From the NCBI GenBank assembly GCA_001725415.1, contig MEGH01000026.1:1-64000 (forward strand): 64,000 nucleotides of DNA. Direction: 5' to 3'. Under the pieces are notes generated by a model that ran no database searches, was not told where the DNA came from, and saw only the letters and a list, made by a program, of their open reading frames with translations. Below, piece by piece: positions 7,166 to 57,349 of the stretch. A program made the position numbers and the translations under genes. How positions within the stretch are numbered: the stretch's first letter is position 1; every line of letters begins with the position of its first letter. The DNA comes from Pseudonocardia sp. SCN 73-27. Lineage in GTDB: Bacteria; Actinomycetota; Actinomycetes; Mycobacteriales; Pseudonocardiaceae.

Positions 7166-7854
7166 GCCCCCTCATCCAGCTCGACGGCGTCGGCAAGACC
7201 TACCGCTCCGGCCCCCTCGAGGTCGACGCGCTGCGGGACGTGCGACTTCGCATCGACGAGGGCGAGTACGTCGCGATCATGGGGCCCTCCGGCTCCGGCA
7301 AGTCCACCCTGATGCACGTCCTCGGCTGCCTCGACGTCGCCACCACCGGCACCTACCGGCTCGCGGGCGCCGACGTCGGGCAGATGAGCGAGGAGGATCT
7401 GGCTGCCGTCCGCAACCGGCGGATCGGGTTCGTGTTCCAGCAGTTCAACCTGCTCGCGTCGATGCAGGCATGGCGCAACGTCGAGCTGCCGCTCTGCTAC
7501 GCCGGGGTCGCCCGGGCAGAGCGCAAGGACCGGGCGATGGCCGCGCTGGGGCGGGTCGGCCTCGCCGACCGCGCCGACCACCGACCCGGCGAGCTCTCCG
7601 GCGGCCAGCAGCAACGCGTCGCCATCGCCCGGGCGCTCGTCACCGAACCCGCACTCCTGCTCGCCGACGAACCCACCGGCAACCTCGACTCCGCCGCCAC
7701 CACCGACGTCCTCGCATTGCTCGCCGAGCTCCACTCCGCCGGCCGCACCATCGTCCTCATCACCCACGAGGAGGACGTCGCCGACGCCGCCGCCCGCGTC
7801 GTCCGCATCCTCGACGGCGAGATCCACTCCGACACCGGGGCGGTGACCGCGTGA
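7162..7854 (+). CDS. ABC transporter ATP-binding protein, MacB/LolD type
   Basis: The 230-aa ATPase of a MacAB-like exporter. It has Walker A GPSGSGKST, Q-loop FVFQQFNLL, signature LSGGQQQR, Walker B ALLLADEPTGNLD and the H-loop VLITHEE. The GNLD ending is typical of the LolD/MacB/FtsE group. It overlaps both neighbours by 4 bases (GTGA at each end), so it is coupled to the adaptor and the permease. The substrate is unknown. Confidence 0.93.
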   Translation: MSPLIQLDGVGKTYRSGPLEVDALRDVRLRIDEGEYVAIMGPSGSGKSTLMHVLGCLDVATTGTYRLAGADVGQMSEEDLAAVRNRRIGFVFQQFNLLASMQAWRNVELPLCYAGVARAERKDRAMAALGRVGLADRADHRPGELSGGQQQRVAIARALVTEPALLLADEPTGNLDSAATTDVLALLAELHSAGRTIVLITHEEDVADAAARVVRILDGEIHSDTGAVTA

Positions 7855-9079
7855 ACTGGCAGGAGACCGTCCGCACCGGCTGGGACGCCGTCCGCTCCCA
7901 CCGGCTCCGGTCCGGGCTCACGATGCTCGGCATCCTCATCGGCATCGCCGCCGTCATGCTCACCGTCGGCCTCGGCCAGGGCGCCCGGCAGACCGTGACG
8001 TCGCAGATCAACGCCCTCGGCAGCAACCTCCTCGTCGTCACCCCCGGCAGCACCACCGGCACCAACGGCGTCCGCGGCGGCGCCGGCAGCGCCTCCACCC
8101 TCACCCTCGCCGACGCCACCGCCCTCGCCTCCCACGACGTGGTGCCCGACGTCGCCGCCGTCGCCCCCACCGTGCAGCGCTCCGAGTCGCTCACCGCGGG
8201 CGACACCAACTGGACCACCACCGTCGTCGGCACCACCCCCGACTTCGCGACCGTCCGCGCCCGCACCATCGCCCAAGGCCGCTTCCTCACCGCCGACGAC
8301 GTCACCGCGCACGCACCCGTCGTCGTCCTCGGGCCGACGACCGCGTCCGAGCTCTTCGGCGGCGGCCAGGCCCTCGGGCGCACCGTGAACGTCGCCGGGG
8401 TGCCGACGACCGTCGTCGGCGTGCTCGCGTCGGCGGGATCGTCGGCCGCGACCAACCAGGACGACCAGGCGCTCCTGCCCTTCACCACCGCGGCCGACCG
8501 CGTCATCGGCGGCTCCGCCCGCACCGCGGTGCAGGCCATCTACATGCAGGCCGCCACGAACGACGCCCTCTCCGGCGCCTACCAGGAGGCGAACGCGGAG
8601 CTCCTGGCCCTGCACCGCATCGGCGACCCCGCCGACGCCGACTTCACCATCACCAGCCAGCAGTCGATCCTCGACACCGCCAACGCGATCACCGGCGCCC
8701 TCACCGCCGTCCTCGGCGGGATCGCCGCGATCTCGCTGCTCGTCGGCGGGATCGGCGTCATGAACATCATGCTGGTCTCGGTCACCGAACGGATCCGCGA
8801 GATCGGGCTCCGCAAGGCACTCGGCGCCACCCCCGCCGTGATCCGCCGCCAGTTCCTCGTCGAGGCCGGCGTCCTCGGGCTCGCAGGCGGCGTCGCCGGA
8901 GCGATCCTCGGCGGGCTCTCCGCGTTCCTGCTCTCCAAGGCCATCGGCCAGCCGATCCTCGTGTCCGCGCCCGTGACGATCGGCGCGATCGTCGTCGCCA
9001 TCGCGATCGGGCTCGTCTTCGGCGTGTACCCCGCGAGCCGCGCCGCCCGGCTCGCCCCCATCGACGCACTGCGGAGCGA

Positions 9080-48976: not shown

Positions 48977-49678
48977 GTGGCCGACGCACCCACGCGCAGG
49001 CTCGGTAACGGGCGGCGTCCGCGCGAGTCGGGTCCGCGCGTGCAGTACCCGCGGTCCGGGCTGCGCTGGCCCGCCCGGTTCCTCATCGGCGGGCTGCTGA
49101 TCGGCGTGATCATCGTGTGCGGCACCGCGTTCCGGGTGTGGCAGACCGCGCGCACCGACACCGAGACCCCCGCCGACGCGGTGATCGTCCTGGGCGCGGC
49201 GCAGTACGACGGCAACCCCAGCCCGATCTTCGCGTCCCGGCTCGACCATGCAGCCGCCCTGTTCCGGGAGGGTGTGGCGCCGCGGATCGTGACCGTCGGC
49301 GGCAACCGGGCAGGCGACGAGTACACCGAGGCGTCCGCCGGGCGGCGCTACCTGCTGGCCAAGGGCGTCCCGGCGTCGGCGGTCGTCGCCGTCGGCGAAG
49401 GGTCCGACACCCTGGCCAGCCTGCAGGCCGTCGCCGCCGTCGCCCGCCGCGACGGCTGGAACAGCGCCATCCTCGTCAGCGACCCCTGGCACTCGCTGCG
49501 GGCACGCACCATGGCCGAGGACGCCGGGCTCGACGCCTGGACGTCGCCGACACGCAGCGGGCCCGTCGTGCAGAGCCGCGAGACCCAGGCCAAGTACATC
49601 GTGAGGGAGACGGCCGCGCTGTTGTACTACCGGATCACGAAGGCACCGGCCGAGACCGAGGACACCGGACTGGGATGA
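48977..49678 (+). CDS. YdcF/SanA-like DUF218 membrane-anchored protein
   Basis: 233 aa. A single transmembrane helix ([18 protein letters not shown], residues ~35-52) is followed by the DUF218 domain: [64 protein letters not shown] and [11 protein letters not shown]. Related ElyC/SanA proteins affect envelope and peptidoglycan precursor metabolism. GTG start 12 bp after the XdhC-like stop; its stop overlaps dgt (ATGA). Confidence 0.88.
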
Positions 49679-50985
49679 GCGGCCCGACCCCCCTGACCGT
49701 CGCGCACCACGACGACCAGGGTTACGACGACCACGCCCGCGCCCGGCTCCTCGCCGAGGACCCGAAGGCGGCCGGCGGCGGGCGGCCCGAGCGGCGCAGC
49801 CCGTTCGCGCGTGACCGCGCCCGGGTGCTGCACTCGGCCGCGCTGCGCCGGCTCGCGGGGAAGACGCAGGTCGTGGGCCCGGGGGAGGGCGCGGAGGTCA
49901 CCGGTATCCCGCGCACGCGGCTGACGCACTCGCTGGAGGTCGCGCAGATCGGTCGCGGCATCGCCGAGGAGCTGGGCGCCGACCCCGACGTCGTCGACAC
50001 CGCCGGGCTCGCCCACGACATCGGGCACCCGCCCTTCGGGCACAACGGCGAACGCGCCCTCGACGAGATCGCGCAGGCGTGCGGCGGGTTCGAGGGCAAC
50101 GCCCAGACGTTGCGCATCCTCACCAGGCTCGAACCGAAGGTCGGCCACGGCGACCACGCGGGCGGGCTCAACCTCACCCGCGCGACGCTCGATGCGTCGG
50201 CCAAGTACCCGTGGGTCGTCGGGCCCGGGGTGCGCAAGTACGGCGCCTACGAGGCCGACGCCCCCGTCCTGGCCTGGGTCCGCGACGGCGCACCGGAACG
50301 CCGACGCTGCATCGAGGCGCAGATCATGGACTGGTCCGACGACGTCGCCTACTCGGTGCACGACGTCGAGGACGGCATCCTCGCCGGCCGCATCGACCTG
50401 GCGTCGCTGGGCCACCCGGAGGAGCGGGCCGCCCTGGCGGCGCTGGCCGTCGCCAACTTCGGGGCCGACGCCGACGCCGACGCCCTCGCCCACGCCGCCG
50501 ACCAGCTGCTGGCCCTGCCCGCGGTCGCGGGCGTCGCCGGGTTCCACGGGCCCACCGCGACGGGCGGCGAGCACGTCGCGCTCAAGGTGCTCACGAGCGA
50601 GCTGGTGGGCCGGTTCGTCCGCGCCGCCACCGACGCGACCCTCGACGCCCTTCCCGACCCCGACGCGCCGGTCACCCGCTACGCGGCCGACCTCGTCGTC
50701 CCACCCGGCGCCGCCGCCGAGGTGGCGCTGCTCAAGGCGGTCGCCGTCCGGTACGTGATGGCCGACCCGGCGCGGCTCGCGATGCAGGCGCGGCAGCGGG
50801 AGCTGCTGGCCGAGCTGGCGGCGTCGCTGCTCGCGGGTGCGCCCGGCGGCCTCGACCCGGTCCGGGCCGAGGACTGGGCCGTCGCCGCCGACGACGCCGC
50901 CCGGTTGCGCGTCGTCGTCGACCAGATCGCGATGCTCACCGACCAGCAGGCGCTGACCTGGCACGCGCGTCTGCGCCGCGTCTGA
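49675..50985 (+). CDS. dgt: Deoxyguanosinetriphosphate triphosphohydrolase-like protein
   Basis: 436-aa HD-domain dNTP triphosphohydrolase. Metal-binding residues are in [16 protein letters not shown] and [15 protein letters not shown] (HD motif), and [16 protein letters not shown] supplies the second Asp. It converts dNTPs to deoxynucleosides plus triphosphate. The ATG overlaps the upstream stop. In mycobacteria it lies directly before dnaG; here ~4.5 kb containing the ECF41 unit separate them, which suggests that block is an insertion relative to M. tuberculosis. Confidence 0.94.
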
Positions 50986-50992
50986 ACGTCCC

Positions 50993-51019
50993 TGTCACGA
51001 ACGCGGGCGCTGTCCCGTC
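50993..51019 (+). promoter_or_regulatory. ECF41-type promoter for the carboxymuconolactone decarboxylase gene
   Basis: TGTCACG at 50993-50999, a spacer of exactly 16 bases, and CGTC at 51016-51019 reproduce the published ECF41 consensus (TGTCACA-n16-CGTC) with one mismatch. It is 35 bases before the ATG of a gene type known to be controlled by ECF41 sigma factors. Confidence 0.75.
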
Positions 51020-51054
51020 CCACCTCCGACGGACGAGACGACGGAGGTCGACAG

Positions 51055-51612
51055 ATGGCACGGATTCCCGCGGTGGCCGAGCGTGACGCGGGCCTGGTGG
51101 GGCGGCTGGTGTATCGGATGGCGCGGCGCCGCTTCGGCGACGTGCCCGAGCCGTTCGCGGTCGCCCGTCACCACCGGAAGCTGTTCTGGGCGGGGCTGGT
51201 GTCGGAGGCGGCCTACCTGAAGGCGTCGACGCTGCTGCCCGGCGCGGTCCGCGAGATCGCGGTGTACCGGACGGCGACGCAGGTCGGCTGCTCGTGGTGC
51301 GTCGACTTCGGCACGATGCTGCAGCGCCTCGAGGGTCTCGACGTGGACCGCCTGCGCCACATCGACTCCTACGCCACCGACCCCCTTTACAGCCACCACG
51401 AGCGGCTCGCGATCGCCTACGCCGACGCGATGACCTCGACCCCGACGACGGTCACCGACGAGCAGGTCGCGGAGTTGCAGCGCGAGTTCGGCCACGCCGG
51501 CCTGGTGGAGCTCACCCATGCGGTCGCGCTGGAGAACATGCGCGCCCGCAGCAACCACGCCCTCGGCATCACCGCCCAGGGTTTCGACGCGGCCTGCAAG
51601 GTCCGTCTGTGA
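51055..51612 (+). CDS. Carboxymuconolactone decarboxylase / AhpD-like protein (ECF41 target)
   Basis: 185 aa, all-helical CMD-fold. The redox-type CxxC is CSWC near residue 80 within VYRTATQVGCSWCVDFG, followed by HERLAIAYADAMTSTP and LENMRARSNHALGI. AhpD-like proteins reduce peroxiredoxins or quench peroxides; ECF41-linked members are uncharacterised. The upstream promoter matches the ECF41 box and the cognate-type sigma gene is 0.8 kb away. ATG start with GGAGG-like GACGGAGG upstream. Confidence 0.9.
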   Translation: MARIPAVAERDAGLVGRLVYRMARRRFGDVPEPFAVARHHRKLFWAGLVSEAAYLKASTLLPGAVREIAVYRTATQVGCSWCVDFGTMLQRLEGLDVDRLRHIDSYATDPLYSHHERLAIAYADAMTSTPTTVTDEQVAELQREFGHAGLVELTHAVALENMRARSNHALGITAQGFDAACKVRL

Positions 51613-51634
51613 CCGGAGCCTGTGAGCGCTGGGT

Positions 51635-52375
51635 TCAGCGTGTGATCGTGCTGTCCGCCGGCAGCGCCTGGCCGGGGCACTCGGCCAGGATGCGCGAGAT
51701 CGCGTCGCGCTCGGCGGCGGTGACCCACAGCGTGTACTTCGTCTTCACCGCGACCTGGCGGGCGACGTAGTCGCAGCGGTAGGCCTTCGACGGCGGCAGC
51801 CACGTCGCGGCGTCGCCGTCGCCCTTGGACTGGTTCGTCGGCCCGTCGACGGCCAGCAGGTTGAGGGGGTCGTTGCCGAGCAGCTTGCGGGTCGGCGCGT
51901 CGAGCTGCTGGGCGCCCTTCTGCCAGGCGTCCGACAGCGCCACGACGTGGTCGATCTGGACCTTCTCGCTGGTGCCCTGGCCGCGCTGGAAGGCGATCGT
52001 CCTCCCGGTGTACGGGTCGGCCAGGGTGCCGGTGAGGACGACGCAGTCCTTGGTGCCGGGCTTGAACGTCTCGCCGGTCATGTCCCGGGCGAGGACGTCG
52101 TTGCGCTGGTCGCAGCCGTTGCGATCGACGTCGGACCACGCCGGCCCGAACTGTTCGCGCTCGTAACCGGTCTTGGGGGCGCGGCCCTTCACGGGCAGCG
52201 CCGCGAGGGCGGTGGCGGCGTCACCGGTGGTGGTCGTACCTGCCGCGGGCACGTCGGCGGGCCCCACCTGGAACCCGGTGGTCTGCAGGGCGGCACATCC
52301 CGACGCCCCCACGCTCAGGGCGGCCACCGCCGCCAGTACCGGAACCACCCGTCGCCACGCCCGTACCGTTCGCAC
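51635..52375 (-). CDS. Secreted lipoprotein HNH nuclease (DUF1524/GmrSD-C-like)
   Basis: 246 aa. The N-terminus is a lipoprotein signal with lipobox-like VGASGC, so Cys27 would be lipidated. The HNH domain has the catalytic pattern VQIDHVVALSDAWQKGAQ, LGNDPLNLLAVDG and NQSKGDGDAATWLPP. Similar secreted HNH proteins are widespread in actinobacteria and probably degrade extracellular DNA for nutrients or competition. GTG start. It is convergent with the CMD gene and just downstream of the sigma factor gene. Confidence 0.87.
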   Translation of the reverse strand: MRTVRAWRRVVPVLAAVAALSVGASGCAALQTTGFQVGPADVPAAGTTTTGDAATALAALPVKGRAPKTGYEREQFGPAWSDVDRNGCDQRNDVLARDMTGETFKPGTKDCVVLTGTLADPYTGRTIAFQRGQGTSEKVQIDHVVALSDAWQKGAQQLDAPTRKLLGNDPLNLLAVDGPTNQSKGDGDAATWLPPSKAYRCDYVARQVAVKTKYTLWVTAAERDAISRILAECPGQALPADSTITR

Positions 52376-52449
52376 CCGGGAATCCTCGCCTGACGCTCAC
52401 CCTGGGTGCCGGAGCGACACGGGGGAGTAGCCAGGAGATCCCGACCGGG

Positions 52450-53313
52450 TCATAGCTTGTCCGGGTTGACCACCTGGAACACACTTCGGATCCGCCCGTT
52501 CGTGATCGAGAGCACGGCGACCGACGCGGGCGCCTTGCCCACCGCCTCGGTCCGCACACCCAGCTCCCCGTTGACGACGACCGGCGTCCAGCCCGTCGCG
52601 AGCCCGTTGCCGTACTTGCGCAGCAGCCCGAGCAGCAGCCGGCTGACGTCCGCGGGGCCGACGATCGGGCGCCGCGCGGCGGAGGCCTTGCCGCCGCTGT
52701 CGGTGAGCATGACGACGTCGGGGTGCAGCAACGCGACGATCCGGTCGGTGTCGGCGCCGGCGAGAGCCTCGGCGAACGCGGCGAGGACGGTCTGCTGCTC
52801 GGCGTCGGTCGCGCGCGGCGGCACGTCGGCCTGGGCGACGATGCGGCGGGCCCGGCTGGCGTGCTGACGGGCCGTGGCCTCGGAGCAGTCGAGCACCTCG
52901 GCGATGCGGCCGAACGGCAGGTCGAGGGCGTCGTGCAGCACGAACGAGACCCGCTGCGGCGGGCTCAGCCGCTCCAGCACGAGCATCGCGGCCATTCGCA
53001 CGCCCTCGTCGCGGACGACGACGGCGAGCGGGTCGTCGTCGCCGGGGGTGGTGACGAGGGGCTCGGGCAGCCAGGGGCCGACATAGCGTTCGCGCCGCAC
53101 CGCCGCGGAGCGCAACCGGTCCAGGCACAGCCGTCCGACGACGGTGGTCAGCCATGCCCGGGGCTCGTCGATCACGTCGACGTCCTGTGCGGCGAACCGC
53201 AGCCACGCCTCCTGGACGGCGTCCTCGGCGTCGGCCAGGCTGCCGGTGATCCGGTAGCCGACGCCCAGCAGGTGCGCGCGGTAGGTCTCGAAGGCCACGG
53301 CGTCGGCGGTCAC
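52450..53313 (-). CDS. ECF41-group sigma factor with fused SnoaL-like domain (SigJ-like)
   Basis: 287 aa. Sigma region 2 (LLGVGYRITGSLADAEDAVQ, DEPRAWLTTVVGRLCLDRL) and region 4 (LSPPQRVSFVLHDALDLPFGRIAEVLDCSEATARQ) are joined by the ECF41 marker WLPEP. The C-terminal SnoaL_2-like extension carries the group's DSGGK (usual DGGGK) and ends in NPDKL. In ECF41 proteins this extension replaces an anti-sigma factor and tunes activity. I start it at the GTG at 53313. It is divergent from the epimerase-type gene whose promoter fits ECF41. Confidence 0.93.
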   Translation of the reverse strand: MTADAVAFETYRAHLLGVGYRITGSLADAEDAVQEAWLRFAAQDVDVIDEPRAWLTTVVGRLCLDRLRSAAVRRERYVGPWLPEPLVTTPGDDDPLAVVVRDEGVRMAAMLVLERLSPPQRVSFVLHDALDLPFGRIAEVLDCSEATARQHASRARRIVAQADVPPRATDAEQQTVLAAFAEALAGADTDRIVALLHPDVVMLTDSGGKASAARRPIVGPADVSRLLLGLLRKYGNGLATGWTPVVVNGELGVRTEAVGKAPASVAVLSITNGRIRSVFQVVNPDKL

Positions 53314-53356
53314 GGCGCGGACGCTACCCGGCGCGACGCGCGTCACGTCCGCACAC

Positions 53357-53383
53357 CGTCACGATCCGGGCCCCGGCCCCGTC
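53357..53383 (+). promoter_or_regulatory. ECF41-type promoter for the epimerase-type gene
   Basis: CGTCACG (53357-53363), 16 bases, then CGTC (53380-53383): the same architecture as at 50993, with an ECF41-like -35 (GTCAC core) and exact -10 CGTC. It lies in the 100-bp gap between the sigma gene and the divergent target. Confidence 0.75.
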
Positions 53384-53413
53384 CCACGGGAAACCACCGA
53401 AGGAGGAGGACCG

Positions 53414-54145
53414 ATGGACATCCTCGTCACCGGGGGCACGGGCAAGCTGGGCCGTGCCCTCGTCGAGCGGCTCCGTGGCGACGGGCGCGCTCCGCGCGTG
53501 CTCAGCCGCACCGCGGGACAGGGCCGAGTCGTCGGCGACCTGCGCACCGGCGCCGGCATCGACGACGCCGTCCGCGGTGCCGACGTGATCGTGCACTGCG
53601 CGACCGCGCCGCGCGGCGACGCCGACACCACCCGCACGCTCGTCGACGCGGCGGCCCGCGCAGGGAGCCCGCACCTGGTGTACGTGTCGATCGTCGGCAT
53701 CGAGACGGTGCCGATGCCCTACTACCGCGCCAAGCTCGCCGCCGAGAAGATCGTGACCGGCAGCGGTCTGCCGTGGACGATCCTGCGCGCCACCCAGTTC
53801 CACGACCTGCTGGCGACGATGTTCTCGGCGGGCTCGCGCACCGGTGTGCTGCCGGTCCTGAAAGCCACTCCGTTCCAGCCCGTCGACGTCACCGACGTCG
53901 CCGCCCGGCTGGCGAAGCTCGCACTGGAACCCGCGGCAGGCCGGGCCGACGACTTCGGCGGTCCCCAGGTGCGCGACATGGCCGACCTCGGCCGTGCCTG
54001 GCTCGCCGCGACCGGCACACGCCGCCGCGTCGTCGCGCTGCGGCTGCCCGGCGCGATCGCCCGCGGCTACCGGACGGGCGCGCACACCGCGCCCGAGCAC
54101 ACCGACGGCACGGTGACCTTCGAACAGTTCCTGGGGACGTCGTGA
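53414..54145 (+). CDS. NAD(P)-binding atypical SDR, epimerase/NmrA-like (ECF41 target)
   Basis: 243 aa. Rossmann motif VTGGTGKLGRALVERL at the N-terminus, then VIVHCATAPRGDADTTRTLVDAAARAG and a YYRAKLAAEKIV segment. This is the 'epimerase' type of the ECF41-linked COE genes. The catalytic YxxxK is partly kept in YYRAK. It may act on a quinone or sense NADPH; activity is not determined. ATG with GAAGGAGGAGG upstream. Its stop overlaps the membrane-protein gene. Confidence 0.9.
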   Translation: MDILVTGGTGKLGRALVERLRGDGRAPRVLSRTAGQGRVVGDLRTGAGIDDAVRGADVIVHCATAPRGDADTTRTLVDAAARAGSPHLVYVSIVGIETVPMPYYRAKLAAEKIVTGSGLPWTILRATQFHDLLATMFSAGSRTGVLPVLKATPFQPVDVTDVAARLAKLALEPAAGRADDFGGPQVRDMADLGRAWLAATGTRRRVVALRLPGAIARGYRTGAHTAPEHTDGTVTFEQFLGTS

Positions 54146-54627
54146 ACACGCGCATCGTGCTCCGTGCCGGCCTGCTCGTGCTGGCCGCGACCCAGGCATT
54201 CGTCGGGCTCTGGGCGCTGCCCGCGCCGCGCTCGTTCTACGACGACTTCCCCACGCCCGGCCGCAGCTGGGTCTCGGCGCTGCCGCCCTACAACGAGCAC
54301 CTCGTCCGCGACGTCGGCGCGCTCAGCCTGGCGTTGACGGTCCTGCTCGTCGCCGCGGCGATCTGGCTCGACCGCAGGCTCGTCGCGATCACGCTCGTGG
54401 TGTTCGGCGTCTGGACGGTCCCGCACGTCGTCTTCCACAGCTTCCACCTGCACGGATTCAGTGCGTTGGACGCCACCCTGCAGACCATCGGCTTCGCGAT
54501 CGAGGTCGTCGTCGCGCTCGCCCTCGCGGTGGTCCTCGCGAGATCGGGCGACGTCCTGAGCGCGCGCCCGTTCACTCGTCCGAATGACGTAGCAGCGACA
54601 CGCCGGACACGCCGCCGAATGAGGTAA
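54142..54627 (+). CDS. Four-helix membrane protein cotranscribed with the epimerase-type gene
   Basis: 161 aa with four transmembrane segments (GLLVLAATQAFVGLWALPA, DVGALSLALTVLLVAAAIWL, VAITLVVFGVWTVPHVVFH, IGFAIEVVVALALAVVLA). The PRSFYDDFPTPGRSWVSALPPYNEHLVRD loop between helices 1 and 2 is characteristic of small DoxX-like/DUF4345-like proteins. The GTG overlaps the preceding stop (GTGA), so it belongs to the ECF41 unit. Function unknown. Confidence 0.8.
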   Translation: MNTRIVLRAGLLVLAATQAFVGLWALPAPRSFYDDFPTPGRSWVSALPPYNEHLVRDVGALSLALTVLLVAAAIWLDRRLVAITLVVFGVWTVPHVVFHSFHLHGFSALDATLQTIGFAIEVVVALALAVVLARSGDVLSARPFTRPNDVAATRRTRRRMR

Positions 54628-55450: not shown

Positions 55451-57349
55451 GTGGCAGGGCGTATCCGGGACAGCGACATCATGGAGGTCCGCGACCGCGC
55501 CCGGATCGACGAGGTCATCGGCGAGTACGTCGCCCTGCGCCGCGCCGGTGCCGGCTCGCTGAAGGGCCTGTGCCCCTTCCACGACGAGAAGACGCCGTCG
55601 TTCAACGTCCGGCCCACGCACGGCACGTTCCACTGCTTCGGCTGCGGCGAGGGCGGCAGCGTCATCGACTTCGTCATGAAGATCGAAGTCGTCGGGTTCG
55701 TCGAGGCCGTCGAGCGGCTCGCGGAGAAGGTCGGCGTCCGGCTGACCTACGAGGGCGGCGGCAGCTCCGTCCAGCGCGACCGCGGGACCCGCTCGCGGCT
55801 GCTGGAGGCCAACCGCAAGGCCGCGGGGTTCTACACGGAGAAGCTGCGCGGCCCCGAGGCCGCCGCGGCCGTCGAATTCCTCGCCGCGCGCGGGTTCGAC
55901 GCCGCCGCGGCCGCCCACTTCGGCTGCGGCTACGCCCCCGCCGGCTGGGACCTGCTCACCAAACACCTGCTGGCCAACGGGTTCACCCTCGACGAGCTCA
56001 TGAAGGCCGGACTGTCCAAGGAGGGCAGGCGCGGCCCGATCGACCGGTTCCACCGCCGCCTGCTCTGGCCGATCCGCGACCTCGGCGGCGACGTCGTCGG
56101 CTTCGGCGCCCGCCGGCTCCACGACGACGACGGCATCGAGGCCAAGTACCTCAACACCACCGAGACGCCCGTCTACCGCAAGACCCACGTGCTGTTCGGG
56201 CTCGACCTCGCCAAGCGCGAGATCGCCAGGCGCCGGCAGGTCGTCGTCGTCGAGGGTTACACCGACGTCATGGCCATGCACCTCGCCGGCGTCCCCACCG
56301 CCGTCGCCTCCTGTGGGACGGCCTTCGGCGCCGAGCACGTGTCCGTGATCCGCCGGCTCATCGGCGACGACAGCTTCGACCTCGGCGAGGTCATCTACAC
56401 CTTCGACGGCGACGCCGCCGGCCAGGCCGCCGCGCTGAAGGCGTTCGAGGGCGACCAGAGCTTCGCCGCGCAGACGTTCGTCTCCATCGCCCCCGACGGC
56501 CAGGACCCCTGCGAGCTGCGCCAGTCCGGCGGCGACACCGCCGTGCGCGACCTCGTCGCCCGCCGCGAGCCGCTGTTCGAGTTCGCGATCCGCTCCATGC
56601 TGCGCGAGCACGACCTCGACACCGCCGAGGGCCGCGTCGCCGCCCTGCAACGCTGCGTCCCGCTGGTCGCGCGGATCCGCCGCGAGGATCTTCGCGACGA
56701 GTACGCCCGCCGCCTCGCCGGCTGGACCAGCTGGGACGACATCGCAATGGTCGTCCGCCGGGTCCGCGAGTCCGCGGGCGCACCCGCCGAGCCGTCCCGC
56801 GGCCGCCGGCCCGCGCCGCCCGTCGGCGCCCCGGCCAAGGACGACCCGCGCCTGCACCTGCAGCGCGAGGCCGTGAAGGCGGCGCTGCAGGAGCCCGCCG
56901 TCGCCGGCCCCGCCTACGACGAGCTGCCCGAGGCCGCGTTCACCCACCCCGCGTTCGCCGGGGTGCACCGGGCCGTCGCCGCGGCCGGCGGCGTGTGCGG
57001 CGGGGTGTCGGGCCAGGCGTGGATCGAGGCCGTCGGCGCCGAGTGCGTCCCCGAGTTCCGGGGGCTCGTCCACGAGCTCGCCGTCGAGCCGATGCAGCTG
57101 CCACGTCGGACCGCCCGCGGCGGCAACAACGGCAACGGCCTCACCGACGAGGCCCGCTACGTCAGCAGCGTCGTCGCCGGGGTGCGGCTCGCGCTCGTCG
57201 AGTCGCAGATCGCCGAGCTCAAGGCGCGGCTGCAGCGCACCAACCCCGTCGAGGAGGCCGACGCCTACCACCAGCTCTTCGGTGACCTCGTGCCGCTCGA
57301 GCAGTACCGGATCGCGTTGCGCGACAAGGCGATGGGAGCCGTCGTCTGA
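55451..57349 (+). CDS. dnaG: DNA primase
   Basis: 632 aa. N-terminal zinc-binding domain (LCPFHDEKTPSFNV, HCFGCGEGG), RNA-polymerase core with the Toprim motifs VVVVEGYTDVMAMHLAG and YTFDGDAAGQAAALKAF, and a C-terminal helicase-binding domain. Synthesises RNA primers at the fork. I chose the GTG at 55451 for the family N-terminus AGRIRDSDIMEVR and its -10 box. The stop overlaps the next ATG by one base (TGATG). The dnaG-Rv2342-like order matches mycobacteria. Confidence 0.97.
   Translation: MAGRIRDSDIMEVRDRARIDEVIGEYVALRRAGAGSLKGLCPFHDEKTPSFNVRPTHGTFHCFGCGEGGSVIDFVMKIEVVGFVEAVERLAEKVGVRLTYEGGGSSVQRDRGTRSRLLEANRKAAGFYTEKLRGPEAAAAVEFLAARGFDAAAAAHFGCGYAPAGWDLLTKHLLANGFTLDELMKAGLSKEGRRGPIDRFHRRLLWPIRDLGGDVVGFGARRLHDDDGIEAKYLNTTETPVYRKTHVLFGLDLAKREIARRRQVVVVEGYTDVMAMHLAGVPTAVASCGTAFGAEHVSVIRRLIGDDSFDLGEVIYTFDGDAAGQAAALKAFEGDQSFAAQTFVSIAPDGQDPCELRQSGGDTAVRDLVARREPLFEFAIRSMLREHDLDTAEGRVAALQRCVPLVARIRREDLRDEYARRLAGWTSWDDIAMVVRRVRESAGAPAEPSRGRRPAPPVGAPAKDDPRLHLQREAVKAALQEPAVAGPAYDELPEAAFTHPAFAGVHRAVAAAGGVCGGVSGQAWIEAVGAECVPEFRGLVHELAVEPMQLPRRTARGGNNGNGLTDEARYVSSVVAGVRLALVESQIAELKARLQRTNPVEEADAYHQLFGDLVPLEQYRIALRDKAMGAVV

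Follow-up and report, generated by a model that had tools for sequence, protein, structure and literature searches.

The interval between dgt and dnaG in Pseudonocardia sp. SCN 73-27 quite probably holds a local ECF41 regulon, in which one sigma factor would serve two promoters, one in front of a gene resembling carboxymuconolactone decarboxylases (CMD) and one in front of an operon encoding an atypical short-chain dehydrogenase/reductase (SDR) and a small membrane protein. The source genome comprises 6.95 Mb on 99 contigs with a G+C content of 73.3%, and the window, i.e. the whole stretch of 64,000 nucleotides that was analysed, corresponds to C26:1-64000. Within the interval the order is CMD-like gene (+), HNH/GmrSD_C gene (-), sigma gene (-), SDR gene (+), membrane protein gene (+), a short open reading frame (ORF) and a glyoxalase-like gene (Table 1). 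The initial annotation had listed the sigma, CMD, SDR and membrane protein genes and had left out the HNH/GmrSD_C gene (51635-52375, minus strand) between the CMD-like and the sigma gene.

Identity of the sigma factor

By its sequence, the product of gene 52450-53313 is an ECF41/SigJ-type sigma factor. It matched the NCBIfam model SigJ (PRK09636.1) with 339 bits (cut-off 271) and the sequence of the SigJ structure 5xe7 with 8.1e-76. The domains PF04542 and PF08281 scored above cut-off and are followed by a C-terminal extension of the ~100 aa expected in the family, to which SnoaL_2 (PF12680) matched below cut-off (22.4 versus 27 bits). The linker motif GPWLPEP was present in the window protein and in all 34 genus orthologues aligned, and the tail carries TDSGGK followed by NPDKL at the C-terminus, so that all ECF41 marks named in the initial annotation were found. 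DSGGK-like and NPDKL sequences are presumably motifs of the ECF41 family. The closest named relative among the 80 top-scoring of at least 583 matches is from P. dioxanivorans CB1190 (82%). The neighbouring genes encode the CMD-like, HNH, SDR and membrane proteins, the last without a firm family; as in ECF41 loci, a COE (carboxymuconolactone decarboxylase, oxidoreductase or epimerase) gene is adjacent and no anti-sigma gene is. In the text searched of Wecke 2012, WLPEP is the one motif named for ECF41.

Two predicted promoters

The two boxes described earlier, each with a GTCAC-type -35, a 16-base spacer and a CGTC -10, were both found (Table 1). Box 1 (TGTCACG-N16-CGTC) ends 35 bases before the ATG of the CMD-like gene, and box 2 (CGTCACG-N16-CGTC) ends 30 bases before that of the SDR gene. 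The spacer measures 16 bases only with a seven-base -35, the convention of Wecke 2012, and 17 with a six-base TGTCAC. Compared with the ECF41 promoter TGTCACA-N16±1-CGTC (Wecke 2012, PMC3426412, consulted in part), both boxes have G for A at position 7 of the -35, and box 2 has C for T at position 1.

The gene behind box 1 lies far from the core of its family, with 13.5 bits to PF02627 under a gathering cut-off of 23. It was called CMD-like because it carries a CxxC motif, as CSWC, and has weak matches to TIGR01926 and to the PDB (best match 6.6e-07); the peroxidase-related models TIGR01926 and YciW-like both stayed below cut-off. Its earlier designation as a carboxymuconolactone decarboxylase thus stands as to the CxxC motif and the weak family matches, and fails on the PF02627 score. 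Box 1 was followed in 34 CMD upstream regions from outside the window genome, 7 of 41 loci (L163, L166, L168, L176, L178, L180 and L186) having been dropped for want of an alignable CMD start. On the sense strand, 26 of the 34 regions contained a strict box, three a looser one and five none, against no strict box on the opposite strand (0/34) and 0.0004 strict and 0.0059 loose boxes per region after base shuffling. From box end to start codon there are 27-43 bases in 26 of the 29 boxed regions; the remaining three have 8, 14 and ~20. Among the sigma-bearing genomes with a CMD gene, 26 of 29 have the box, all 26 with a CGTC -10 and 24 in the strict form, the two loose ones beginning with AGTCACG or having a spacer of 15. 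The first base of the -35 of the genus CMD boxes is C in 14/27, as frequent as T, and the seventh is G in 25/27. In the close clade (three species including the window), all 11 box positions are invariant versus 8 of 16 spacer positions (p=0.006). In L189 and L190 (P. autotrophica group), where the CMD box is missing, tandem CTCCCTCGTACCCCGAG-like repeats stand upstream in its place.

The gene behind box 2 encodes an epimerase-type/NmrA SDR, as annotated at first, with scores above gathering cut-off for PF13460 (74.1 bits), PF05368 (45.1 bits) and PF01370 (30.5 bits). Across four species including the window, 11/11 box positions are invariant versus 4/16 spacer positions (p=1e-4), and the distance from box start to SDR start is 57-60 bases in all four clade genomes. 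The membrane protein gene and the SDR stop share 4 bases, and a homologue lies 3' of the SDR gene in 3/4 genomes of this clade and in 4/4 of the P. autotrophica group.

Boxes across the genome

Genome-wide, YGTCACG-N16-CGTC occurs at 56 sites and the reversed pattern at 12. Gene placement covered this form, to the exclusion of GGTCAC, other -35 and other -10 forms, and relied on a home-made codon-usage caller, which set the start of the CMD gene 18 bases too far downstream without moving it out of the 100-base limit. Of these 56 sites, 46 fall within called or open coding frames (one in a 619-codon open frame) and 10 outside called genes. Only the CMD and SDR boxes are both intergenic and followed by a gene start at no more than 100 bases. 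Since gene-proximal boxes were found at these two genes only, a small regulon is supported, and the expectation of few boxes at unrelated genes was borne out. The pattern first proposed for a genome scan (TGTCAC-n16-CGTC) misses box 2, which begins CGTCAC, and also box 1 if the -35 is read as six bases.

Three outside candidates were rejected as further targets: a VOC gene, the best of them, which follows the next nearest intergenic box at 120 bases and for whose homologues, found in two of four relatives (G010 and G037; G058 and G003 without a match), no box was seen in the preceding 200 bases; another SDR gene, separated from its box by 156 bases in which a TTGACA/TAGGTT promoter lies (by eye); and a third whose box is 283 bases from its gene. 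The variant YGTCACA-N16-CGTC occurs at five sites, one of them before a second ECF41 gene.

Expression of the sigma gene

Of 35 sigma genes, that of the window among them, 28 show a TANNNT element, frequently TAGCGT, at a distance of 5-9 bases upstream of an in-frame start codon, which is GTG in nearly all of them. The same element appeared in 1.6% of shuffled upstream regions and in 0/34 CMD genes, and the seven sigma genes without it include those of the P. autotrophica group. This suggests leaderless housekeeping transcription of the sigma gene, and control would therefore rest on the SnoaL-like tail. In Ecf41Bli, activity rose ~20-fold when part of the tail was removed and was lost when all of it was (PMC3426412). 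Autoregulation through an ECF41 box was rejected, as the sigma genes of this clade showed no such box upstream; in a single genome, L193, TGTCACA-N16-CGTC does precede the sigma gene.

Other ECF41 factors in the genome

The genome yielded 15 sigma matches, three of which align over nearly the whole length. The second ECF41 sigma gene (C26:64802-65638; L325, L199; 43% identity) lies shortly past the end of the window, at a distance of 11.5 kb, and has its own TGTCACA-N16-CGTC box at 64747-64773, before the sigma gene; no full box was seen before its CMD gene. The third, ECF41-like, factor (C76:672-1502; L200, C76:73-1538; 41%) carries HVPDP in place of WLPEP and has GGTCACA-N16-CGTC in both directions. 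Each is accompanied by a divergent CMD gene, canonical in the case of the second factor, with 80.5 and 65.9 bits to PF02627, respectively. Because the boxes of the three ECF41-type factors are similar, cross-talk is possible.

Conservation and history of the locus

As judged from gene order, the sigma-CMD pair is old and the SDR unit is patchy. Of 34 genus loci, 23 showed all of dgt, CMD, sigma and dnaG, and the genes followed that order in 23/23, one of the CMD genes (L166) being a 28-residue match only; the sigma gene lay between dgt and dnaG in all 25 genus loci in which both flanks were seen. This neighbourhood also occurs in Lentzea, Saccharothrix, Thermocrispum and Saccharopolyspora, genera of Pseudonocardiaceae, with convergent CMD and sigma genes except in Thermocrispum, where both point in the same direction. 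The block thus does part dgt from dnaG, as first noted, and is no recent insertion; patchiness is confined to the SDR unit.

In the dgt–dnaG interval the SDR gene was seen in two groups only, namely this clade (window, G037, G010 and G058) and the P. autotrophica group (G015, G016, G020 and G059). In the latter, it directly follows a further ECF41 sigma gene (41-42% identical to the window one), whose 3' end contains a TGTCACG-N16-GGTC box. G021 (L253) carries sigma, SDR and membrane protein genes in this order as well, at another genomic site. Beside other ECF41-type sigma genes, the -10 of the SDR promoter reads GGTC (4), GGTT (1) or TGTC (4) and never CGTC, in rows that include L237 and L238 as duplicates and whose four TGTC cases belong to factors without WLPEP; in this clade it is CGTC in 4/4. 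In L240, L242, L244 and L248, SDR homologues have GTCACR-N16-GGTC boxes and no ECF41 gene within the stretch read; they are possible trans-acting targets.

In the SDR tree, this clade and the P. autotrophica group came together with three others (support 90/93), the dnaG tree placed the two groups apart, and L192 groups with P. autotrophica yet lacks the SDR gene. Therefore, the SDR unit may have undergone repeated loss or arrived twice. A capture of the unit is a possible, if tentative, further reading: in the ancestor of this clade it might have lost its own ECF41 sigma factor and been taken over by the resident CMD sigma factor, with a change of the -10 from GGTC to CGTC and the spacer still at 16. 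The difference between CGTC here and GGTC beside the second sigma gene at the same chromosomal site is what would speak for a change of owner; the SDR box begins at nearly the same place, 53 bases before the SDR start in the P. autotrophica group versus 57-60 here. A D/T residue in region 2.4 was rejected as the cause of CGTC versus GGTC, as the second factor of this genome has T yet a CGTC box.

Neighbouring genes

The HNH/GmrSD_C protein, a bystander without an ECF41 box, has a signal-like N-terminus (by eye), and its place within the interval differs between species. PADLOC returned a dGTPase call for dgt and none for the HNH/GmrSD_C protein. The ORF at the distal flank, which aligned with homologues, we take from its sequence to be dnaG.

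Table 1 Features of the dgt–dnaG interval and its flanks (window coordinates)
Feature	Position	Strand	Basis or details
dgt, flank	49675..50985	+	NF002829, 577.9 bits
ECF41-type promoter of CMD gene (predicted)	50993..51019	+	-35 TGTCACG 50993-50999, spacer 16, -10 CGTC 51016-51019
CMD/AhpD-like gene, CSWC motif, 185 aa	51055..51612	+	ORF; TIGR01926, YciW-like below cut-off
HNH/GmrSD_C-domain protein, bystander, without ECF41 box	51635..52375	-	PF07510, 80.8 bits
ECF41/SigJ-type sigma factor, GTG start at 53313	52450..53313	-	sigma2, WLPEP linker, sigma4, SnoaL-like tail
TAGCGT, likely housekeeping -10 of sigma gene	53321..53326	-	7 bases before GTG
ECF41-type promoter of SDR gene (predicted)	53357..53383	+	-35 CGTCACG 53357-53363, spacer 16, -10 CGTC 53380-53383
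NmrA/NAD_binding_10 atypical SDR	53414..54145	+	PF13460 74.1 bits, PF05368 45.1 bits
Small membrane protein (by eye), weakly DUF4345-like	54142..54627	+	PF14248, E=0.012, below cut-off
dnaG (presumed), flank	55451..57349	+	ORF aligned with homologues

Alternative explanations

Co-inheritance speaks for the favoured reading: across 62 genomes including the present one, sigma and CMD genes occurred together in 29, sigma alone in 6, CMD alone in 6 and neither in 21 (p=2e-6, uncorrected for kinship). Several observations weigh against one sigma factor serving both promoters. The p-values are too small since the genus rows are related; the six genomes with a sigma gene and no CMD match indicate that the pair is not obligatory. 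The CMD gene lacks a box in 3 of the 29 sigma-bearing genomes (L182, L189 and L190, the last two identical there). Conversely, among five genomes with a CMD gene and no intact sigma gene nearby, a strict box was found in 2/5 and a TGTC-ending one in 1/5. The CMD-only genomes comprise G008 (box kept), G026 (box ending in TGTC), G006 (no box), G003 (CMD split over two frames), G051 (sigma and CMD genes both broken, no box) and G049, where a piece of the sigma gene stands at a contig edge. In G058, the nearest relative by DnaG, an in-frame deletion in the sigma gene (L287, 7124-7546) removes sigma4 and the start of the tail, and no CMD match was found, yet the SDR gene and its box are intact; therefore, the SDR gene may have another reader and not simply depend on this factor, or the loss is recent. 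No membrane protein gene was found after the SDR gene of P. dioxanivorans (G010; L162, oriented 7738-8290), where the short ORF that follows it is kept. For this reason it is the weakest member of the regulon, and its earlier proposal as a third member is backed by the overlap with the SDR stop and by the homologues in both groups and opposed by this absence. Finally, the two other ECF41-type factors of the genome have similar -35 elements.

The last point leads to a somewhat unlikely explanation, in which paralogous ECF41 factors share promoters and the block belongs to a wider ECF41 network. The genome does contain three ECF41-type sigma genes, and the boxes of the second and third differ from the present one at the -35 edges only; against this, each of these factors has its own adjacent CMD gene, and base 7 of the -35, A in their boxes, is nearly always G in the genus CMD boxes of the present type. 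A regulon self-contained at this locus, as first proposed, is likely, with the reservation that two further ECF41-type sigma genes exist, one with its own box 11.5 kb off. Quite unlikely is a sigma factor with the CMD gene as its sole target, the SDR box being a remnant or serving a different ECF41 factor, for instance that at G000:C26:64802 or an unlinked factor. It would accommodate the position of the SDR gene directly behind its own sigma gene, with the box in the 3' end of that gene, in the P. autotrophica group, as well as the retention of SDR gene and box without an intact sigma gene in G058 and the initial C of box 2. That base, however, is as frequent as T in the genus CMD boxes, box 2 is invariant in four species at a kept distance from the SDR start while its spacer drifts, its -10 agrees with the CMD boxes in being CGTC, where second-sigma promoters have GGTC, and the interval contains no second sigma gene. 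Chance matches in DNA of 73% GC, for which the excess of 56 strings over 12 for the reversed pattern might be taken to speak, are extremely improbable: most of these strings lie inside called or open coding frames, and position, spacing and strand are kept in 26/34 CMD upstream regions versus 0/34 on the opposite strand. This explanation was set aside because the boxes are conserved.

Comparison with known ECF41 systems

The 80 named ECF41 loci that scored best among at least 583 were classed by BLAST to the window proteins, with GGTC-type boxes left out of the count. In 52 of these 80 loci, a box lay no more than 140 bases from an ORF whose start had a ribosome-site-like sequence, and two non-sigma genes with separate boxes occurred in one, the same locus in P. 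dioxanivorans; two boxed partner classes are thus rare, as had been supposed.

For B. licheniformis, R. sphaeroides and S. meliloti, ECF41 factors have been reported to act on one gene or one operon each (PMC3426412, PMC6180224). The factors of Bacillus licheniformis and Rhodobacter sphaeroides resemble the present one in the WLPEP linker, the C-terminal extension, the adjacent CMD gene and the TGTCACA/CGTC promoter with a spacer of 16±1 (PMC3426412). They differ in serving one target gene or operon, whereas two promoters and two partner classes are predicted here, and no ECF41 box was found before the sigma gene here. RpoE9-SMb20029 of Sinorhizobium meliloti likewise combines an ECF41 factor with a CxxC CMD target behind the same bipartite box, TGTCACA-N16-CGTC; there, this CMD gene is the sole target found and is likely co-transcribed with the sigma gene (PMC6180224). 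Mycobacterium tuberculosis SigJ (5xe7; regulation reviewed in PMC8999054, consulted in part) belongs to the same NCBIfam subfamily and has a SnoaL-like tail. In Table 4 of Wecke 2012, the convergent arrangement (>ECF> <COE<) of the CMD-like gene accounts for 9/373 cases and the divergent one (<ECF< >COE>) of the SDR gene for 55/373 (PMC3426412). The modules of P. autotrophica (L061, L189) and G021 (L253) share the SDR gene, the membrane protein gene and an ECF41-type box with N16, but have their own ECF41 sigma gene directly upstream (40-42% identical to the window sigma) and a GGTC or GGTT -10. No two-target ECF41 locus, leaderless ECF41 gene or Pseudonocardia ECF41 factor was found in the literature searched, subscription papers being outside the search. 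ECF41 factors are in general reported to have one gene or operon under their control, from which the predicted locus with two promoters and two partner classes would depart.

Proposed regulation and its meaning

In the local regulon favoured here, the sigma gene would be read from a leaderless housekeeping promoter, and by analogy with other ECF41 members the SnoaL-like tail would act on the linker and hold the factor in check until a small molecule or a redox change frees it. The freed factor would then direct RNA polymerase to GTCACG-N16-CGTC before the CMD-like gene and, independently, before the SDR-membrane operon. The products may act on a reactive compound; they are probably a redox enzyme with a CxxC motif, an SDR that binds NAD(P) and a partner in the membrane. 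The SDR unit, elsewhere beside a second ECF41 sigma gene with a GGTC -10, would here stand under the CMD sigma factor.

If true, two promoters of different partner classes would provide a paired read-out, and two enzymes with which to triangulate the substrate. A comparison of the two clades would offer a natural example of the states before and after a possible transfer of an ECF target to another factor through a changed -10. In G058, G051, G003 and G006, all without an intact sigma gene, the decay of regulator, box and target may have progressed to different degrees.

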